From positions 378,385-442,384 of the forward strand of contig NZ_KQ483358.1 of assembly GCF_001432305.1 (NCBI RefSeq): a stretch of DNA of 64,000 bases, read 5' to 3'. The notes under the pieces were generated by a model. It saw only the letters and a list, made by a program, of their open reading frames with translations. It was not told the DNA's origin and made no database searches. The translations under genes were made by a program, and so were the position numbers. Source of the DNA: Curvibacter sp. PAE-UM (GTDB taxonomy: Bacteria; Pseudomonadota; Gammaproteobacteria; Burkholderiales; Burkholderiaceae_C). Below, one piece after another: positions 2,287 to 55,749 of the stretch (the first letter of the stretch is position 1; every line of letters begins with the position of its first letter).

Positions 2287-3336
2287 ATGCCTACCGTCTC
2301 CGGCGCCCAACGCGCCCACACCCTCAGCGATTTCGACTTCGAGCTCCCGCCCGAACTCATCGCCCAGCACCCCACAGCCGAACGCAGCGCCTCGCGCCTG
2401 CTCGACGGCCGTGGCGCGCAACCGGTGGACCGTATCTTCCGAGAGCTGCCTGGTCTGCTGCAGGCCGGTGACCTGCTGGTCTTCAACGACACCAAGGTGG
2501 TGAAAGCGCGCCTCTTTGGGGAGAAGCCCACCGGCGGCAAGCTGGAGCTGCTGATCGAACGTGTGCTGACCGGCCACGAGGTGGTGGCCCACATGAAGGT
2601 CAGCAAAAGACCGGCCGTGGGCACGGTGCTGCAGATGACCGGGGGCTACACGGCAGAGCTGCTGGGCCGCTGGCCCGATGAAGACGGGCAACTCTTCCGC
2701 CTGCGTTTCAGCGATGAGCCGCACCAGTTGATGGAGCAGCACGGCCACGTGCCGCTTCCTCCCTACATCGAACACGGCGACAGCGCCGAAGACGTGGCGC
2801 GTTACCAGACCGTCTTCGCCGCCAAACCCGGCGCCGCCGCCGCACCCACCGCCGCCCTGCACTTCGACGAAAGTCTGCTGGCCGCACTGGAAGCGCGCGG
2901 CGTGCAGCGTGCCAGCGTCACCCTGCACGTGGGCGCCGGCACCTTCTCGCCCGTGAAGACCGAGAACCTGGCCGAGCACCGCATGCACCGCGAGTGGTAC
3001 GAAGTGCCCGCCGCCACGCAGCAGGCCATTGCGGAAACGAAAGCGCGCGGCGGCCGCATCGTGGCCGTGGGCACCACCACCATCCGCACCCTCGAATCCT
3101 GGGCCAGGACGGGCCAGGCCAGCGGCGACACCGAAATCTTCATCACCCCGGGCTTCGCGTTCAAGGTGGCTGACCTGCTGGTCACCAACTTCCATCTGCC
3201 CAAGTCCACGCTCATGATGCTGGTCAGCGCCTTTGCGGGCTACGAGCACATCATGGGGCTGTACCGGCATGCGATCAGCGAGCGCTACCGCTTCTTCAGT
3301 TATGGGGATGCGATGCTGCTGGAGCGGTTGCGGTAG
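2287..3336 (+). CDS. queA: S-adenosylmethionine:tRNA ribosyltransferase-isomerase QueA
   Basis: QueA transfers and isomerises the ribosyl moiety of SAM onto 7-aminomethyl-7-deazaguanine in tRNA, giving epoxyqueuosine. The 349-residue protein has the family signatures: an N-terminal [14 protein letters not shown]-type segment, DTKVVKARL, an internal LHVGAGTF block, and a C-terminal [11 protein letters not shown]...NFHLPKSTL...AFAGYE stretch that ends the family. Length is normal. Tgt, which acts earlier in the same queuosine pathway, lies in the same window at 10714. The last ~200 bp of this gene is repeated in decayed form at 3972-4036 and 6501-6696, so the downstream region is a likely insertion site. 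Confidence 0.97.
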
Positions 3337-3429
3337 TCACAACTGTTACGGATGCGCCGCTGGCGGCCAGGAACGGCCTGCAGCAGGCGCCCGTAGAATA
3401 CATAAGACAACCTGCATGGATAAACCCCC

Positions 3430-3924
3430 GTGTTGAACACCGACTTCCGCCCCTCCCAGCTCCCCGAGTTCACCCCACCTTCGGTGCCGCAAACGAAGCT
3501 CAAAAGAGCGGCGGCCGAATACGCGCTGGTTGCGCTCGCCGCGGGCATCGGGGGCGTGCATGTGCTGGTGACCAGTTACCTGACCCGCCTCGCGCTGGCG
3601 CCTGCCATCGCCATCGGGGTGCTGCTGACCCTGCACCTGGGCACGGTGTTCGTGGCACGACTGCGGCAAGGCGAATGGCTGGGGCTGACCGGGCTTCTGA
3701 TCACCCTGCTGGCGGCCCTGGTGGCACCGGCTACCGCCGGCCTGGCCGACCCCACGGACCACATGGCCCCGGCGGGCGGCTACGTGCCCCTGCCCACCGC
3801 GTCCACGGACCACTCGATCGCGGGCAGCGCCCGCGCCCTGGCCGACAACGCCGGCCCCATCGTGGTGATCATCGGCGCCCTCATCAGCAGCTGGTTCGCG
3901 GTGCACAACGCCAAGCCGAGATAG
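3430..3924 (+). CDS. Small multi-pass membrane protein of unknown function
   Basis: The 164-residue product has a polar N-terminus (to about 25), then hydrophobic segments near residues 32-52, 55-75 and 80-100, a Pro/Ala/Thr-rich probably extracytoplasmic loop (about 105-135), and a final segment near 140-160. This suggests an inner-membrane protein. I do not recognise the family. The start used is GTG at 3430; the upstream Shine-Dalgarno is weak, so the start is uncertain. It is the only gene between intact queA and the first decayed copy of the queA 3' end at 3972, which makes it a candidate insert at that locus. Confidence 0.7.
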   Translation: MLNTDFRPSQLPEFTPPSVPQTKLKRAAAEYALVALAAGIGGVHVLVTSYLTRLALAPAIAIGVLLTLHLGTVFVARLRQGEWLGLTGLLITLLAALVAPATAGLADPTDHMAPAGGYVPLPTASTDHSIAGSARALADNAGPIVVIIGALISSWFAVHNAKPR

Positions 3925-3971
3925 GCTGCGGGGATAGCCCCGGGCCCGGCAGCCGGGCTGCTTTCTGGCTT

Positions 3972-4036
3972 GCGGCGACGCCGAGATCTTCATCACCCCG
4001 GGCTTCGCGTTCAAGGTGGCCGACCTGCTGGTCACC
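3972..4036 (+). pseudogene. Decayed copy of the queA 3' region (fragment 1)
   Basis: Sixty-five bases match queA 3122-3186 with three substitutions, encoding the [20 protein letters not shown] block. Immediately downstream the sequence diverges, but ATCAATTTACC resembles the corresponding ATCCAATTTACC of the second fragment at 6501-6696 rather than queA itself. It has no start codon or upstream queA sequence. It lies between the membrane protein gene and the 3' end of the oxidase gene, marking a boundary of an insertion. See the finding on queA 3' duplications. Confidence 0.8.
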
Positions 4037-4122
4037 CCATCAATTTACCGTCGTCCTCTCAGGGAAGCCAAGCGCACCGTATCAAGCGCTACCTTTGGGT
4101 GACATCAGACCTCGCTGGCTTA

Positions 4123-5544
4123 TCAAGCCGTAACCCTCTTCGTATGGCGGAAGAAATTGCCGGGGTCGTATTGCTGCTTCAGTGCCGCGAGCTTGTCCAG
4201 GTTGGCCTTGCCATACGCGGCTTCGATGCGGTCCGCCCCCTCCTCTTCGGTCAGGAAATTGATGTAGGTGCCTCCCGTCGAACAGGGTCGCATGGCCTCA
4301 AAGCAGGCGCGGGCCCACTGCATATGAAGGTCATCCTCCCCTGGCTTCTCCCAGGATGCCGCAATGTTCAAGACATAGGCCGCGTCGCGATTGCCAGCGG
4401 GAGAATGCCCGGCCGGCAACTCGCCCAATGCCCCCTGTATCTGGAACAGAAGAATGGCTGAATGGGGTGATTGAATTCGGCCCGCATGTTCCACGGCGAG
4501 GTCTATGGTTTTTTGCTCGATGCCGGCCAGGTAGTGTGACTTCCAGTAATAACGCCGACCCTTGGGCTGCGTGCCATCCAGCAAGGATTGCATTTGCGCA
4601 TAGGGCCGACGCGTCACGATGTCGGCCACGGGCTGCCCGATGGCACGCAGCGTCTTCATGAGGGCTTCACCCTCTTCGACCTTGCCGGTATGACACACGA
4701 AAATGGCCACGATGGGCTTGCCATGCACCTCCTTGGGCAGCCAGGGTGCCGGTGGCGCAATCCGGAGCACGGCCACACTGGTCAGTTCCCGTGGTGCTGC
4801 AGCGCTGAATGCCCGATAGGCCTGGAGAACCTCCTGGGCCTTGTCGCCGGTCCAGGCCATGGCACCCCCGAGGATTTCGGGCCCGACGGGAAAGAGCTGG
4901 TATTCAAAGGACGTGACGATGCCGAAATTGCCGCCGCCGCCCCGCAAGGCCCAGAACAGGTCTTGGTTCTCGTCGGCCGATGCACGCAACACCGTGCCGT
5001 CTGCGCTGACCACTTCCATCGACACCACGTTGTCGCACGTCCAGCCATGGCGGCGCGTCAGGTAGCCAAATCCACCACCCACTGTGAGGCCCGCGATCCC
5101 CGTGGCCGAGACAAAACCCAGCACGGCGGCGAGACCGTGCAGTTGCGTCTCGCGGTCGACGTCAGCCAGTGTGCAACCCGCTTGAGCGCGCGCCCTGCGG
5201 TTCACCGGATCGACCCAGACGGCACGCAGGAAAGACATGTCGATCATGAGCCCGCCGTCGCAGACGGAAAGCCCGGCAATATTGTGGCCACCGCCGCGCA
5301 CAGAACTGAGCAGACCGTGTTGTCGTGCGAAACGCACGGCCTGCACCACATCGGCCGTGCCGGTGCAGCGCGCCACCAGGCCGGGCCGCCGGTCGATCAT
5401 CGCGTTCCAGATCGTGCGGGACTCCTCATACTCCGGGTCGTCTGCCGTCAGAACCCGTCCCTTGAATGCAGTCTTGAAGGCCTGCAGGGTCTCCGGTGCC
5501 AGGTCGACGGTGCCGCCGTCCAGTGTCGCGAGCTTGATGGTCAT
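4123..5544 (-). CDS. FAD-linked oxidase with BBE domain
   Basis: This is a VAO/BBE-type flavoprotein oxidoreductase that would oxidise an alcohol or sugar-like substrate using covalently bound FAD; the substrate is unknown. The 473-residue product has an FAD-binding PCMH domain (about 35-210) with RGGGHN, whose His is the usual 8-alpha flavin attachment site, and a VGGGFGYLTRRHG segment. It ends in a berberine-bridge C-terminal domain with YINF and YDPGNFFR. The second covalent Cys of bicovalent members appears to be Ser in the VSATG segment, so attachment is probably monocovalent. Start at 5544 is preceded by AAGGCGG on the minus strand. It is divergent from an HxlR regulator, and both lie between two queA fragments. 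Confidence 0.88.
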   Translation of the reverse strand: MTIKLATLDGGTVDLAPETLQAFKTAFKGRVLTADDPEYEESRTIWNAMIDRRPGLVARCTGTADVVQAVRFARQHGLLSSVRGGGHNIAGLSVCDGGLMIDMSFLRAVWVDPVNRRARAQAGCTLADVDRETQLHGLAAVLGFVSATGIAGLTVGGGFGYLTRRHGWTCDNVVSMEVVSADGTVLRASADENQDLFWALRGGGGNFGIVTSFEYQLFPVGPEILGGAMAWTGDKAQEVLQAYRAFSAAAPRELTSVAVLRIAPPAPWLPKEVHGKPIVAIFVCHTGKVEEGEALMKTLRAIGQPVADIVTRRPYAQMQSLLDGTQPKGRRYYWKSHYLAGIEQKTIDLAVEHAGRIQSPHSAILLFQIQGALGELPAGHSPAGNRDAAYVLNIAASWEKPGEDDLHMQWARACFEAMRPCSTGGTYINFLTEEEGADRIEAAYGKANLDKLAALKQQYDPGNFFRHTKRVTA

Positions 5545-5744
5545 GGTGATCCGCCTTGGGTGTGTTGAAGTCTCAGGCTGCCCCATCGGCCACGATGTAC
5601 CGATGCAGTCAGCCGCCTGGTTTCTCCCTACCCGCGCGTACCGGTTCAAGGTCTACGCGATGTAGGGCAGGGCCAGCTTGCGCGTGACAAGCCACGGTGA
5701 CCAGTCCAGAATCTGAAGTGTTTCCAGTTTTCGGAGGCGATGCG

Positions 5745-6449
5745 ATGGAAGCCAGCTACGGCCAGTTCTGTACCGTTGCACGGGGTGCGGAGGTCTTGTG
5801 CGAGCGATGGACGCCGCTGGTGGTGCGCGAGCTGCTGTGCGGAAGCAGGCGCTTCAACGACCTGCACCGGGGCGTGCCGCGCATGTCCACCAGCCTGCTG
5901 GTGCAGCGGCTTCAGCGCCTGGAAGAATTCGGGATCGTGCGCCGCACTGCTGTCGGCAAAGTCTGGGAATACAGCCTCACGGCCGCCGGCGAGGATTTGC
6001 GTCCGATTGTGATGGCGCTGGGCCATTGGGGCGCGCAGTGGATAGGCAGCCGCTTGCGCGACGATGAACTGGATGCCGGCCTGCTCATGTGGGACATCCG
6101 CCGATTCGCGCGCGTCCAGGAGTTCCCGGAGAAGCCCGTGGTGATCAACTTCCAGTTCCGGGACGCACGCATACGCGAGGATGCATGGTGGCTCGTGGTG
6201 GAAAGCCGTGTGGCCGACCTGTGCCGCGATGACCCCGGGCGCGAATTGACCCTGGTGGTGGATGCCTCCGTGCGTGCGCTGACCGAGGTATGGGCCGGCG
6301 ACCTGACCCCCCAACAGGCCCTGCGTTCGCGCGAAATCCGTGTGGACGGGCCGAAGCGTGACGCGGAAGACCTGTGGCGATGGCTGGGAACCAGTGCGTT
6401 TGCCCCAACACGCCTGAAAAGAGGTGGCTCATCGAAGAGGATGCGCTGA
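5745..6449 (+). CDS. HxlR-family winged-helix transcriptional regulator
   Basis: The 234-residue protein starts with an HxlR DNA-binding domain (about 1-100): CTVARGAEVLCERWTPLVVREL, then RRFNDLHRGVPRMSTSLLVQRLQRLEEFGIVRR and a YSLTAAGEDL wing. HxlR proteins usually end near residue 110-120. This one has a further ~120 residues resembling an SCP2-type ligand pocket, as in longer HxlR members. Start at 5745 is chosen because GGAGG lies at 5733-5737. It is divergent from the FAD-linked oxidase, which it probably regulates from the 200-bp intergenic region. Confidence 0.88.
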   Translation: MEASYGQFCTVARGAEVLCERWTPLVVRELLCGSRRFNDLHRGVPRMSTSLLVQRLQRLEEFGIVRRTAVGKVWEYSLTAAGEDLRPIVMALGHWGAQWIGSRLRDDELDAGLLMWDIRRFARVQEFPEKPVVINFQFRDARIREDAWWLVVESRVADLCRDDPGRELTLVVDASVRALTEVWAGDLTPQQALRSREIRVDGPKRDAEDLWRWLGTSAFAPTRLKRGGSSKRMR

Positions 6450-6500
6450 ATTTCTGCGGGGTTCAAGGGCCTGCGTTAGCAGCAAGGCTGCATCCGGCTG

Positions 6501-6696
6501 GTGACACCGAAATCTTCATCACCCCGGGCTTTGAGTTCCAGGTGGCCGACCTGCTGGTCACCAAATCCAATTTACCAAAGTCCCCCCTCATGGTGCTCGT
6601 CAGCACCTTTGCGGGCTACGAACACATCATGGGGCTGTACCGACATGCGATCGCGCAGCACAATCGGTTTTTAGTTATAGGGATGCGATGGTGCTG
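6501..6696 (+). pseudogene. Decayed copy of the queA 3' region (fragment 2)
   Basis: About 196 bases correspond to queA 3124-3320. In frame they read [21 protein letters not shown], then [20 protein letters not shown] and GLYRHAI, before the homology breaks down near the queA terminus. It lacks the upstream three quarters of the gene and cannot encode QueA. It follows the HxlR gene and precedes the TIR-domain gene, so it forms the right boundary of the oxidase/HxlR block. It also shares the AATTTACC variant with fragment 1. Confidence 0.85.
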
Positions 6697-6907
6697 AAAA
6701 ATCAGCGCTAATTTTTTTTACAGCCTAAGGTCAGAGGCAGTTTGAAGTACCGTCGAAGCTAATCAACCACGCGGCCCCGCAAAAAAGTGAATCCACCTAA
6801 GTGGGCACGGCTCTTAGAATCAGTCGTAGTGTTTCCGTCAGGTGCAAATGCTGCTTAGCCCCGCTCTCTTCAAACGTTGTCAGCCCTAGCGGGATGGAGA
6901 AAATGAA
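6697..6907. other. Intergenic AT-rich stretch before the TIR gene
   Basis: This 211-bp stretch holds a T-run at 6712-6719 just after the queA fragment, then low-complexity non-coding sequence. No coding feature is supported here. Its base composition is visibly less GC-rich than the core genes. Confidence 0.5.
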
Positions 6908-7726
6908 ATGGCATCTTTGAAGTTTCGGGAGAGGAAAGTTCTTGAGGATTTCCTTGAGATGGGTAGCGGCTATGTCTTGAATTTCAGTGATCGCACGTTT
7001 GCTGAATTCTTTCGGGACTTTGGCGTCGATATTGACGATGCTCAGTACCTTGAAGGACATAGCGGCTCCAAAGCCAATCGGATGCGTAGCTTCTTAGATC
7101 GTGCACCGGACTTGTTGGCAGGGGAAGTAATCGAAGAGCTTATTGGCTACGCAGAGTCGTACCGAATAGGCCACAAAACTGCCAGTCAATGCCTGTCTAT
7201 CGCTGCTCGACTACGGGAAACGCAATCGAATCCGTCTAAACCTTCGGCGACCGCAGCCGCTAGCCCTTACGGAATACAACGATTCAGTGCGCGCCCAATC
7301 GAAATCTTCTTCTCTTACGCACATGAGGATGAAGCGCTGATGGATGTTATTCGCCTTCAGCTCGTAGTGCGAGAACGCATCGGCGAGATCGTAAAGTGGC
7401 ATGACCGCATGATTCCTGCGGGCGACGAATGGCGAACCCAGATTGACAAGAGGATTGAAAGCTCTCACGTCATCCTGCTCTTCATAAGCCCTCACTTCCT
7501 CGCTTCTCGCTACTGCTACGAAATTGAAGGTGAGATCGCCCTTCGCAGACACCGAGAAGGCACTGCACGGGTCATCCCCGTGATACTGAGAGCCTGTGAT
7601 TGGACCGTTACTCCTTTTGCTGAGCTTCAAGCGCTCCCCAGGGATGGCATTCCGATCACACAATGGCCCGATCGAGATCAGGCATCTCTAGATGTCGCGC
7701 GTGGGATCATGGAAAGTGTCCAGTGA
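6908..7726 (+). CDS. TIR-domain protein with AbiJ-like N-terminal region
   Basis: The 272-residue protein has an N-terminal helical region (about 1-105) with MGSGYVLNFSDRTFAEFF and GHSGSKANRMRSFLD, which resembles AbiJ N-terminal domains found in abortive-infection proteins. A linker rich in Ser, Ala and Pro follows, then a TIR domain (about 131-250) beginning IEIFFSYAHEDE and containing the SRYCYEIE segment. Glu205 sits where the catalytic Glu of NAD-cleaving TIR enzymes is found. An anti-phage or stress-triggered NADase is therefore plausible but inferred. GGAG precedes the ATG. Base composition is less GC-rich than its neighbours, and it sits just after a queA fragment, consistent with transfer. 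No partner gene is adjacent. Confidence 0.8.
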   Translation: MASLKFRERKVLEDFLEMGSGYVLNFSDRTFAEFFRDFGVDIDDAQYLEGHSGSKANRMRSFLDRAPDLLAGEVIEELIGYAESYRIGHKTASQCLSIAARLRETQSNPSKPSATAAASPYGIQRFSARPIEIFFSYAHEDEALMDVIRLQLVVRERIGEIVKWHDRMIPAGDEWRTQIDKRIESSHVILLFISPHFLASRYCYEIEGEIALRRHREGTARVIPVILRACDWTVTPFAELQALPRDGIPITQWPDRDQASLDVARGIMESVQ

Positions 7727-7825
7727 TTATTTTGCCAAGGGCTCTAAACCAAGCGCTTTGGCAAGCTTAGTTTGATCGAAAACCAGCGTTCCATCACTAA
7801 GCAACGCTTCAGTTTCGGTGGCCAT
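7727..7825 (-). CDS. Possible 32-residue small ORF, doubtful
   Basis: An ATG-initiated minus-strand frame ends immediately after the TIR gene stop on the other strand. Its translation ends in KLAKALGLEPLAK and looks protein-like, possibly the C-terminus of a lost gene. No clear ribosome-binding site was seen. It may be a remnant or chance. Confidence 0.2.
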   Translation of the reverse strand: MATETEALLSDGTLVFDQTKLAKALGLEPLAK

Positions 7826-7842
7826 TAGCCTACCAATCACTA

Positions 7843-8676
7843 CTAGCCTTTAAGGCCCTGCGCATGATGCGCAAAATGGTCCGCCATGAAGCTCGCAATG
7901 AAGTAATAGCTGTGGTCATAACCCGCATGGCGGCGCAGCGTGAGCGGATGGCCCGCGGCAGTGCAGGCAGCCTCCAGCAGCTCCGGCCGTAGCTGCTTGC
8001 GCAAAAACTCATCGGTCTCGCCCTGGTCCACCAGGATAGGCAGACGTTCCTGCGCGGTGGCGACCAGTTCCACCGCATCCCATTCCTTCCACGCTGAAGC
8101 GTCCGCGCCCAGATAGGCCGTGAAGGCCTTCTGGCCCCAGGGCACCTGGCTGGGGGCGACCACGGGGGCGAAGGCCGAGACGCTGCGGTAACGGCCGGGG
8201 TTGCGAAGGGCGGTGACGAGCGCGCCGTGGCCGCCCATGCTGTGGCCGAAGATGCCGCGCGCATCGGTGGCGGGGAAGTTCTGCTCGATCAGTGCGGGCA
8301 GCTCCTGCGCCACGTAATCCTGCATGCGGTAGTGCTGGGACCAGGGGGCCTGGGTGGCGTTCACATAAAAGCCCGCGCCTTCGCCCAGGTCGTAGCTGTC
8401 TTCATTGGGCACGCCGGGGCCGCGTGGACTGGTGTCGGGGGCGACGAGGATGAAGCCGTGGCGCGCGGCGTGTTCCTGCGCGCCGGCCTTGGTGATGAAG
8501 GTCTGTTCGTTGCAGGTCAGGCCGGCCAGCCAGTAGAGCACGGGGCAGCGCTGGCCCTCGACAGCAGCGGGCGGCAGGTAGATGCCGAACTTCATGTCGC
8601 AGCCCAGCACTTGGGACTGATGTTTCCAGACTTCCTGGCGGCCGCCAAAGCTGGCGTGTTTCTCAACGCGGTTCAT
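7843..8676 (-). CDS. fghA: S-formylglutathione hydrolase
   Basis: This serine hydrolase releases formate and glutathione from S-formylglutathione in glutathione-dependent formaldehyde detoxification. The 277-residue product matches the esterase D family in length. It has LAGLTCNEQTF near the oxyanion region, the nucleophile elbow GHSMGGHGAL (Ser146), a downstream Asp in the DQGETDEFL segment, and the catalytic His in GYDHSYYF. The start at 8676 has GAGGAAACCC upstream. The usual partner, glutathione-dependent formaldehyde dehydrogenase, is not adjacent. Confidence 0.95.
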   Translation of the reverse strand: MNRVEKHASFGGRQEVWKHQSQVLGCDMKFGIYLPPAAVEGQRCPVLYWLAGLTCNEQTFITKAGAQEHAARHGFILVAPDTSPRGPGVPNEDSYDLGEGAGFYVNATQAPWSQHYRMQDYVAQELPALIEQNFPATDARGIFGHSMGGHGALVTALRNPGRYRSVSAFAPVVAPSQVPWGQKAFTAYLGADASAWKEWDAVELVATAQERLPILVDQGETDEFLRKQLRPELLEAACTAAGHPLTLRRHAGYDHSYYFIASFMADHFAHHAQGLKG

Positions 8677-53130: not shown

Positions 53131-53196
53131 TGTGACTTAGTCCACGGCCATGGCACCCCACTGTCGTGGCCGTGCCTCTTTGTGACTTAGCTCACA
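53131..53196 (+). promoter_or_regulatory. Pair of CRP-like boxes upstream of the first LivK-like gene
   Basis: TGTGACTTAGTCCACG (53131-53146) and TGTGACTTAGCTCACA (53181-53196) are exactly 50 bp apart. The second matches TGTGA-N6-TCACA, the CRP/FNR-superfamily consensus, perfectly. The distal box lies 122 bp and the proximal box 72 bp upstream of the ATG at 53253. A matching pair precedes the paralogous gene. Confidence 0.65.
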
Positions 53197-53252
53197 GAGG
53201 AAATCCGGGTTTCCCCTTAGGCTCTGGGTTTTACACCCGTCTAGGCTTGTTC

Positions 53253-54407
53253 ATGATGTCGCCAATCATTTCCCGACTGCACCGTTGCGTGTACTGGCTC
53301 ATCCTGATGCTGGCCGGCCCCGGCACGGTGCTGGCCCAGGGTGTCACCCCGAAACAGATCCTGATCGGCCAGAGCATCACACTGCAGGCCGGCAAGAACG
53401 AGTACGGCATGGCCGTGATGGACGGCATCAACGCCTACCTGCAGGACGTTTATGCCAAGGGCGGGGTCAACGGCCGCCAGATCGTGCTCACGACCCTGGA
53501 CGACGACAACAAGGCCAGCCAGGCCGAGGCCAATGCCCGCAAGCTGATCGAGGAAGACAAGGTCTTCATCCTGTTCGGCTCCATCGAAGGCGGCCCCTCC
53601 AACGCGGTGATGAAGGTGGTCAACGAACTGAAAGTGCCCCTGTTCGGCCCCATGGCCGGCTCGCCCACCCTGCGCCGGCCGCACCAGCCGCTGGTGTTTC
53701 CGGTGCGCGCCGAGCACCGCGACGAGTTCCGCGTGCTGCTGGAGTACATCCGCTCCACCGGCGGCAAACGCGTGGCCTTCTTCCGCGCGGATTCCGAAGT
53801 GGGCCTGCAGCACCTGGAGAATTTCAGGCGCCTGTGCCAGGAGCTGGGCCTGGAGCTGGTGCTGGACCTGCCTTTCAAGTCCGACGTGACGGACGAGCAG
53901 CTCGCGACCATGGCCGGCCGCATCGCCGCGGCCAACCTGCAGGGCGTCGTCAACCACGGCAGCGCCGGTCTCTACGAAAAACTGATCCGGCAGACACGCA
54001 CCAAGGGCAGCCCCACGCCCTTCATGGCCGTCAACTCCGGCTCCACCCAGCTGGCCCGCCATCTGGGCCAGCTGGCGCACGGCATGCTGTTCGCGCAGGT
54101 GCTGCCCAGCCCCTGGGAACGCAAGACCGATCTCACGCGCGAATACCAGGATGCCTTCAAACGCCACAAACCCGGCGTGGACTTTTCCTACGGCAGCCTG
54201 GAGGGTTATATGACGGCCAAGGCCCTGGTGGCCGCCCTGCGCCTGGCCGGCCCGCAGCCCACGCGCGAGAGTTTCATCCAGGGCATCTACAAGGCCGGCG
54301 CGTTCGACCTCAATGGCCTGCGCACCAGCTACCAGCCCGGCGACCACGCGGGCCTCAAGCTGGTGGACCTGGCCATGTACACCCGCGAGAACCGCTTCCG
54401 GCACTGA
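53253..54407 (+). CDS. Leu/Ile/Val-type (Peripla_BP_6) periplasmic binding protein, copy 1
   Basis: The 384-residue protein has a signal peptide (about 1-28, ending VLAQ) and a two-lobed binding fold: GVTPKQILIGQSITLQAGKNEYG, LDDDNKASQAEANARKLIEEDKVFILFGSIEGGPSNAV and FSYGSLEGYMTAKALVAALRLAG. Such proteins usually bind branched amino acids or amides, but no transporter genes are adjacent; it may instead feed a sensor. ATG at 53253 or 53256 could start it, with no clear Shine-Dalgarno. It is about 70 percent identical by eye to the next gene. Confidence 0.9.
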   Translation: MMSPIISRLHRCVYWLILMLAGPGTVLAQGVTPKQILIGQSITLQAGKNEYGMAVMDGINAYLQDVYAKGGVNGRQIVLTTLDDDNKASQAEANARKLIEEDKVFILFGSIEGGPSNAVMKVVNELKVPLFGPMAGSPTLRRPHQPLVFPVRAEHRDEFRVLLEYIRSTGGKRVAFFRADSEVGLQHLENFRRLCQELGLELVLDLPFKSDVTDEQLATMAGRIAAANLQGVVNHGSAGLYEKLIRQTRTKGSPTPFMAVNSGSTQLARHLGQLAHGMLFAQVLPSPWERKTDLTREYQDAFKRHKPGVDFSYGSLEGYMTAKALVAALRLAGPQPTRESFIQGIYKAGAFDLNGLRTSYQPGDHAGLKLVDLAMYTRENRFRH

Positions 54408-54458
54408 GCGACTGCCGCCTCGACTGCGCGGCGCGGCTCACGGCGCCTCCTTCGCGGA

Positions 54459-54526
54459 CGTGACTTAGTTGACATTTACCGCCTTGGGTGGGCACCCTGG
54501 TCCTGCGGCGTGACTTATTCCCTGAC
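54459..54526 (+). promoter_or_regulatory. Pair of CRP-like boxes upstream of the second LivK-like gene
   Basis: CGTGACTTAGTTGACA (54459-54474) and CGTGACTTATTCCCTGAC (54509-54526) begin exactly 50 bp apart, as in the promoter of copy 1. A shared TAGGCT motif follows 35-36 bp after the second GTGACTTA in each promoter. The right half-sites here are weaker than in copy 1. Confidence 0.55.
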
Positions 54527-54579
54527 AAATCTTGGGGTTACTCGTAGGCTGATGGGCATAACACGAATGGGAGCCCCTC

Positions 54580-55749
54580 ATGCATGCAAACACACTTGTC
54601 CAATCGCTGCGCCTGGGCCTGCGAGTGCTGTGCAGCCTGCTGCTGGCCAGTGCTGCCGCGTATGCCCAGCAGGGCGTCACACCCCGACAGATCCTGATCG
54701 GCCAGAACATCTCGCTAGAAGGCGGCAAGAACGAGTACGGCACCGCCGTACTGGACGGCATCAACGCCTACCTGCAGGAAGCCAACGCCAGTGGCGGCGT
54801 ACATGGGCGCGCCATCGTGCTCAAGACCCTGGATGACGATAGCAAGACTGGCCGGGCCGAGGCCAATGCCCGCAAGCTGATCGAGGAAGACAAGGTCTTC
54901 ATCCTGTTCGGCTCCATCGAAGGAGGCCCCACCAACGCCGTGATGAAAGTCACCAACGAATTGAAGGTGCCCTTTTTCGGCCCCATGGCCGGGTCGCCCA
55001 CGCTGCGCCGGCCACACCAGCCGCTGGTGTTCCCGGTGCGCACCGAGCACCGGGATGAATTCCGTGTGCTGCTCGACTACGCCCGCCTCACGGGCGGCAA
55101 GCGCATCGCCTTCTTCCGCTCCGATACCGAGGTGGGGCGACAACATCTGGAGAACTTCCGCCTGGTGTGTGAAGAGCTGGGCCTGCAAATGGCACTGGAC
55201 CTGCCCTTCAAGTCCGACGTGAGCGACGAACAGATTGCCGCCATGGCCGCGCGCCTGCGGGCGGAGAAGATCGATGCCGTGGTCAACCACGGAACCGCCG
55301 GCATCTACGAGAAGCTGATCCGCCAGACCCGCGCGCTCGGCGCGACGACCCAATTCTTCGGTGTCAATTCCGGCTCCACCCAACTGGCCCGGCGCCTGGG
55401 CGAGCTGGCCCACGGCATGGTGTTCGCACAGGTCGTGCCCAGCCCCTGGCAGCGCCAGACCGATGTGACACGCGAGTACCAGAAGGTCTTCGGCCGCTAC
55501 AAACCGGAGGCCGGCTATTCTTACGGCAGCCTGGAGGGCTACCTGACCGCCAAGGCTCTGGTGATGGCGCTGCAGTTGGCCGGCCCCCATCCGACCCGCG
55601 AGAGCTTTGTGCAAGGCCTCTACAAAGCCGGCAGCCTGGAACTCAGCGGCCTGCAGGCCAGGTTCGAACCCGGCAACCACCGGGGCCTGAAGCTGGCCGA
55701 TCTCTCGATCTACCGCTACGAGAAAGACGACAAGCGTTTCCGTCACTGA
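54580..55749 (+). CDS. Leu/Ile/Val-type (Peripla_BP_6) periplasmic binding protein, copy 2
   Basis: The 389-residue paralogue of the preceding gene has a signal peptide (about 1-29, ending AYAQ) and the same blocks: GVTPRQILIGQNISLEGGKNEYG, FILFGSIEGGPTNAVMKVTNELKVPFFGPMAGSPTLRRPHQPLVFPVR, and YSYGSLEGYLTAKALVMALQLAG. GGGAG precedes the ATG. Differences are scattered through the protein, including part of the presumed ligand-contact region, so the two copies may bind different ligands. Again no permease or ATPase is nearby. Confidence 0.9.
   Translation: MHANTLVQSLRLGLRVLCSLLLASAAAYAQQGVTPRQILIGQNISLEGGKNEYGTAVLDGINAYLQEANASGGVHGRAIVLKTLDDDSKTGRAEANARKLIEEDKVFILFGSIEGGPTNAVMKVTNELKVPFFGPMAGSPTLRRPHQPLVFPVRTEHRDEFRVLLDYARLTGGKRIAFFRSDTEVGRQHLENFRLVCEELGLQMALDLPFKSDVSDEQIAAMAARLRAEKIDAVVNHGTAGIYEKLIRQTRALGATTQFFGVNSGSTQLARRLGELAHGMVFAQVVPSPWQRQTDVTREYQKVFGRYKPEAGYSYGSLEGYLTAKALVMALQLAGPHPTRESFVQGLYKAGSLELSGLQARFEPGNHRGLKLADLSIYRYEKDDKRFRH

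Follow-up and report, generated by a model that had tools for sequence, protein, structure and literature searches.

Two direct copies of the queA 3' end among the genes behind queA in Curvibacter sp. PAE-UM

Partial gene duplications arise by illegitimate (microhomology) recombination or template switching, and the junction identity usual in homology-facilitated illegitimate recombination is a few bp. Integrative elements insert at the 3' ends of conserved genes. Homology-facilitated illegitimate recombination has been described for transformable bacteria (PMC6382021). tRNA examples of insertion at gene 3' ends are given in a second publication, in which an island uses a tRNA-Leu downstream of tgt and queA (PMC2647930). 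Here we analyze the region behind queA in a stretch of 64,000 nucleotides from Curvibacter sp. PAE-UM (contig NZ_KQ483358.1, positions 378,385 to 442,384), called the window below. Two direct copies of the queA 3' end, f1 and f2, lie there behind an intact queA, separated by other genes. On balance we favor the explanation that both are by-products of recombination at an insertion-tolerant spot, with one ancestral join and later recombination.

Self-alignment, a check suggested by an earlier sequence-only reading of this region, shows both copies in the orientation of queA and in the order queA-memb-f1-oxidase/hxlR-f2, where memb is a gene for a membrane-like protein (Table 1). The f1 core (3972-4036) corresponds to queA 3122-3186, with 3 mismatches in 65 nt (95.4%). 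It continues beyond 4036, aligning with f2 through AATTTACC to about 4066. The longer copy, f2 (about 197 nt), is 86% identical to queA. The sequence-only reading had reported the 65 bp repeat with its 3 mismatches at 3972-4036 and a decayed copy of about 196 bp, and both are confirmed. So is its variant common to the two fragments, AATTTACC, which is missing from the window's queA; ATTTACC is present at the corresponding place in queA of two relatives (G016 and G018). In a search of the whole genome (G000, the window's own), the best matches to the queA 3' end are queA itself (E 1e-120), f2 (6e-59) and f1 (4e-23), and no further copies were found. The fourth-best match is 22 nt at E 0.009, so chance similarity is excluded. 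The two direct copies behind an intact queA are therefore a confirmed observation. The end of f2 overlaps a terminator-like stem with a T-run (6689-6710, then T); a terminator scan found 2 against 4.0 expected in shuffles, and thus gives no evidence of terminator function there.

The gene between queA and f1 holds the key to the first junction. In a sample of 26 genomes of the genus (G000 included; 25 have a queA 3'-end match), memb is present in 10. It was also found in 2 of 299 family genomes, both belonging to this genus, so that in the scans made it is confined to the genus; it has no Pfam, PHROG, PADLOC or NCBIfam match. It stands behind queA in five genomes (G000, G012, G013, G019 and G024), after a garR-like gene in three (G011, G016 and G017; the same upstream sequence occurs in G021) and after a glmS-like gene in one (G022). 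The labels glmS and garR, like tgt, sseB, glnK, BUF, DoxX, BamC, Tn7-like and ThsA, are assumed assignments that do not come from a family search. Since relatives hold memb behind the garR-like or glmS-like gene, it is native to the genus and not imported cargo. Three different loci in one genus carry this gene, behind queA, the glmS-like or the garR-like gene (L142/L153 of G022; L138; L144-L146; window 3430-3924). The garR-like and glmS-like loci of G000 itself lack memb, and matches of the f1/f2 flanks to these two loci were rejected as short alignments of chance size.

The 3' flank of memb has its homolog in G022, where memb is not near queA. The window flank resembles that of G022 up to GCTTGCGGC; there G022 diverges, while the window proceeds into queA from GCGGCGAC. 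The five nucleotides GCGGC at this point are common to both partners, the product expected of an illegitimate join. The f1 junction behind memb recurs in G013 and G024, with its 3' part in G012 and a trace in G019. Because relatives with the same neighbor memb have f1, it represents one ancestral event. A queA tree of 22 sequences (G010 and G022 were dropped as partial; G005, G006, G014 and G015 were not included) separates the five species with memb behind queA from the others with support 0.995. The pattern suggests that memb moved to queA rather than away from it.

Because AATTTACC and probably the memb-side flank are common to both copies, f1 and f2 are probably related and f2 is unlikely to be an independent insertion. 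Their similarity reaches left into the flank (3949-4049 versus 6479-6576, 83%), and the memb flank and the sequence after hxlR are alignable from the stop codons onward.

We propose two steps. In the ancestor of the five Hylemonella-type species, memb would have been placed directly behind queA, together with the sequence upstream of it and its 3' flank; the resulting pattern is observed, and its direction and mechanism are our reading of it. The memb flank would have been joined across GCGGC to the interior of queA at gene position 836. With the join located ahead of the queA end, memb would have been followed by another queA tail, 215 nt long. This product could have come from a template switch in the course of repair, from a transient duplication or from homology-facilitated illegitimate recombination. 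In the second step, the oxidase/hxlR pair may have entered the lineage of the window, where it came to be flanked by two copies of the memb flank plus queA tail. Homologous recombination through the tail copy already present, possibly involving a relative's DNA, would produce such an arrangement; the left copy would then have been truncated, and the TIR gene lies beside the right one. No dedicated recombinase would be necessary. Campbell-type integration, one of the two mechanisms offered by the sequence-only reading, may apply to this second step, as homologous recombination of DNA carrying a queA tail.

The distribution of queA tails in relatives was examined by aligning the queA of each genome to its downstream sequence (25 genomes of the genus, 40 of the family); q numbers give positions within the queA gene. 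Besides G000, four genomes of the genus have more than one queA 3'-end match (G013, G024, G011 and G012). The tails start at q829 in G024, q831 in G013, q836 in f1, q838 in f2 and q837 in G011, and the G012 fragment covers q978-1040 only. Other matches in the 25 genomes were short (E 5e-5 or weaker), many of them inverted. In G024 a different contig (L068) carries a further full queA, whose product is 77% identical to the window's QueA; this assembly is listed with 8% contamination.

Among 299 family genomes 290 match queA (the top two candidates per genome were scored), and the 40 regions compared with their own queA come from the top of this list, hence from genomes closer than average; the stretches were 1.3 to 18 kb long, four of them below 5 kb. 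None of the 40 has a tail, and three show short matches only (q729-766, two inverted), regarded as chance. Nine further family genomes gave short matches to their own queA only. One of the nine, G256, has a match of 30 nt (80%) to its own q828-857, 430 nt behind queA (E 0.025), and was rejected since 6 of 92 windows score as high. Short second queA matches also occur in seven family genomes besides G000; the six examined look like chance, four being another protein, presumably BamC, that shares the peptide (G)TEIFI/SEIFI and two lying in unrelated frames, and the seventh (G033) is 31 nt at a contig start. In the order sample of 399 genomes, the QueA C-terminus is present in 381: G000 has three matches and each of the 380 others a single one. 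Some genomes belong to both the 380 and the 40. A viral source of the tail was considered and discarded: in 37 viral contigs with a QueA match, the match always extends upstream of the tail, although several are cut by contig ends.

The space behind queA is an insertion-prone, variable spot, a conclusion supported by the distance to tgt. This gene was found in 25 of the 40 family stretches, its start lying between 2 nt and 10.9 kb past queA. In the genus, where tgt was found, the distance from the aligned queA end to its start ranges from 12 nt to about 18 kb. The variable cargo expected by the sequence-only reading is borne out by these distances, which run from 2 nt to about 18 kb. Its empty sites also exist: queA and tgt are nearly adjacent, with neither cargo nor fragments, in G009, G020, G025 and several family genomes. 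Since the distance varies and 0 of 40 regions has a tail, genes are often gained at this spot with no queA tail left behind. The predicted queA-end fragments at cargo borders hold for G013, G024, G012 and G011, but for 0 of the 40 family genomes, though cargo is common there. Of the proposal that cargo was inserted repeatedly, each time with a copy of the queA end, the insertion spot stands, but memb is native and f1 and f2 are probably related.

No recombinase was detected near queA. None of the six window genes tested with Pfam (2287 to 8676) is an integrase or transposase and no tRNA was found in the window, in agreement with the sequence-only reading, which had seen neither integrase nor tRNA. 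A search for PF00589 (E<=1e-8; 26 genomes of the genus, 25 with queA; same contig as queA) gave no match within 60 kb of queA in the 25 genomes, within the limits set by contig ends, and serine recombinases were not searched genome-wide. The nearest match is about 69 kb away, in G025; because several queA contigs are short, this proximity is a limited test. For 27 open reading frames (ORFs) behind queA, picked from 182 candidates (103 after overlap removal; one from G027, outside the genus), 35 families were matched, and the 25 listed are enzymes, transporters, signaling proteins and regulators, with no integrase or transposase among them. Eight cargo proteins were tabled singly: five have no Pfam match, and the others are a PAS-GGDEF-EAL protein, an AraC-type regulator and a protein with an AAA domain below the cut-off.

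Several observations weigh against the two-step explanation. The five-species split is held by the queA 5' part (support 0.90) as well as by the 3' part (0.97), so that both parts keep the five together and no foreign queA 3' end is seen. The homology of the left flank of f2 is of moderate weight: compared with the memb flank of G000, none of 1000 shuffles scores as high but 4 of 1119 window segments do, and when the memb flanks of five other species are used, between 77 and 276 of 1000 shuffles reach that score. The 3' half of f2 has the other-species state at 5 of the 7 sites that mark the five-species group, while the G024 fragment has the five-species state at 6 of 7; six of these sites lie within 15 nt and may reflect one or two events. 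In a fragment tree (which did not include the short f1, G013 and G011 pieces; the alignment did not include G012), f2 groups with queA of G018 (support 0.92), and the G024 fragment is placed within the five-species group. By sites and tree, f2 and the G024 fragment are therefore not simple orthologs, and f2, placed with other species, can be an old tail or the tail of a relative. G011 lies outside the five-species group, yet its tail starts almost where f1 and f2 do. This tail (L064 8738-8827, in reverse-complemented orientation) lies behind unrelated cargo, with 14 nt between it and the end of a DoxX-like gene, and its start falls in the range q824-837. Illegitimate breakpoints coinciding within about 15 nt of a 1050-nt gene are unlikely (about 1-3% by our own estimate), and the closeness of two apparently unrelated junctions, those of G011 and f1, is the best argument for a preferred site. 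L064 contains two N runs, one between queA and the fragment; because an N run interrupts the DoxX-like gene, the link of this tail to queA rests on scaffolding.

These points bear on the other explanations. Circles of cargo plus queA tail might integrate by homologous recombination between tails, the units being exchanged between strains. The direct-repeat geometry in one orientation agrees with such exchange, as do a putative copy of the memb flank right behind the hxlR stop, as if cargo had replaced cargo, an f2 allele that looks foreign to the five-species group, and the other cargo followed by a queA tail in G011. A simple single crossover predicts a full-length f1, whereas f1 ends near 4066; neither a circular form nor the same unit in another host was seen, and the 40 other family regions have no tails. 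We consider exchange of this kind unlikely as the origin of the whole arrangement. Somewhat less likely again are the remains of an integrative element whose integrase, since lost, attacked the queA 3' end at about q836 and displaced the old tail at each insertion. Three tails starting at q836-838 (f1, f2 and G011), the intact queA, the f2 states at the diagnostic sites, as a displaced old tail might show them, and an attachment-site-like repeat at both borders would fit this origin. It is opposed by the lack of PF00589 matches near queA, by the native status of memb, by GCGGC, which explains the f1 junction, by the single QueA C-terminus in the 380 other order genomes and by the viral contigs, 0 of 37 of which has a bare tail. 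The lost integrative element of the sequence-only reading is accordingly weak. A site-specific element may have been involved, although it did not stand up in those tests that were feasible, and the G011 tail keeps this reading alive at low probability.

Quite improbable in our judgment is a further variant, in which the queA 3' end from codon 279 is, in this genus, the insertion target for small cassette-like units of cargo plus queA tail, with a recombinase unknown or acting in trans, so that memb, oxidase-hxlR and the G011 cluster stack like integron cassettes. For an origin by assembly artefact or chance similarity, one can point to the draft or metagenome status of several relatives and to the N runs in L064, but the same junction occurs in several genomes, fragments are found in two nearly closed ones (G000 and G012), and the E-values of f2 and f1 speak for themselves; the chance of such an origin is negligible.

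The remaining genes of the region confirm the order given by the sequence-only reading (queA, membrane gene, fragment, oxidase/HxlR pair, fragment, TIR gene), as established by Pfam and alignments. The oxidase occurs in 1 of 26 genomes of the genus at E<=1e-60, namely G000 itself and none of the 25 others, and the TIR gene lies in a stretch of low local GC (0.49-0.55 versus about 0.6-0.7 around it); for these reasons both look imported. The oxidase/hxlR pair looks like foreign cargo and memb does not. Ahead of its ThsB-like C-terminal TIR domain, the TIR protein has about 120 aa at the N-terminus that match no Pfam family. In much of the genus, fghA marks the right side of the variable gap. 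Elsewhere in the window (53166-55749), two neighboring paralogous genes, presumably for periplasmic binding proteins, are 78.5% identical in DNA over about 1 kb.

Table 1. Features of the region behind queA (window positions)
Feature	Position	Strand	Evidence or remark
queA, intact, 349 aa	2287..3336	+	PF02547 E 2e-127, full profile 1-322/322
recurring part of queA, last 215 nt	3122-3336	+	self-alignment
memb, gene for a 164-aa membrane-like protein	3430..3924	+	label from the sequence-only reading
memb 3' flank with GCAGC..GCTGC inverted repeat	3925..3971	+	matches G022 memb flank, E 7e-7, 78%
GCGGC junction identity, 5 nt, common to memb flank and queA 3122-3126	3972..3976	+	alignment
f1, copy of queA 3122 to about 3220, right side cut off	3972..4066 (right limit approximate)	+	alignments
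oxidase, FAD-dependent, berberine-bridge type (FAD_binding_4+BBE)	4123..5544	-	PF01565/PF08031
HxlR-type regulator (hxlR)	5745..6449	+	PF01638 E 9e-23
candidate second copy of the memb 3' flank (diverged), adjoining the hxlR stop	6450..6499	+	moderate evidence
f2, decayed copy of queA 3124-3321	6500..6696	+	self-alignment
TIR-domain protein (TIR_2), C-terminal TIR like Thoeris ThsB	6908..7726	+	PF13676 E 2e-17; PADLOC ThsB E 3e-49
fghA, S-formylglutathione hydrolase	7843..8676	-	TIGR02821 E 3e-127

Copies of gene ends are not a general habit of this genome in the sample taken: 14 stretches of 20 kb from G000 contain few direct repeats within 8 kb, and none of those inspected (all but L164 and L169) is queA-like in arrangement. 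The repeats found include one of 757 nt in L169, one of 50 nt in L163 and, in L164, both a tandem of 82 nt and longer repeats of gene size. At the start of a G000 contig (L157), a 63-nt direct repeat (2394-2456 and 5374-5436, 89%) covers the end of one gene and a region ahead of another frame, and L165 (1844-2216; G000:C1, about 1.90 Mb) has a 149-nt repeat (98%) with an N run between the copies. In 3 of the 21 genomes examined, a copy of the final 26-41 nt of the glmS-like gene follows its stop at a distance of 100 nt in L174 (G000), 116 nt in L176 (G024) and, in two copies, 135 and 260 nt in L183 (G019); it is palindromic spacers, and not cargo, that accompany these copies. In L177 (G007), L178 (G023), L181 (G016) and L173 (G018), ATTAAAGTCG(T/A)AAACA-type repeats start within about 40 nt after the glmS-like gene and resemble what we take to be the end of a Tn7-like element.

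This locus shows how a conserved gene boundary collects genes. Gene-end repeats, often read as scars of attachment sites, may stem from one illegitimate join that is then reused by homologous recombination. It also presents a native gene, memb, at three places in one genus, two of them directly behind housekeeping genes (the glmS-like gene and queA).

Compared with known systems, the likeness to Thoeris is limited to the TIR domain, which matches PADLOC ThsB; the tested neighbors of the TIR gene are the HxlR regulator and fghA, not an adjacent gene of the ThsA type, presumably the usual partner of ThsB. With integrative elements at gene 3' ends the locus shares an intact gene beside cargo and a 3'-end copy at the far border; it differs in that no integrase was found, one cargo is native, and no tails occur in the 380 order genomes and 40 family regions. 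Partial gene duplication is matched by the direct orientation, the partial 3' copy, the short junction identity and an interposed segment that lies elsewhere in relatives, although here the queA copy later flanks a second insertion in a serial arrangement. Finally, as in homology-facilitated illegitimate recombination in the form described for transformable bacteria, one side could be anchored by queA homology and the other is a join across a short identity (GCGGC, 5 nt).

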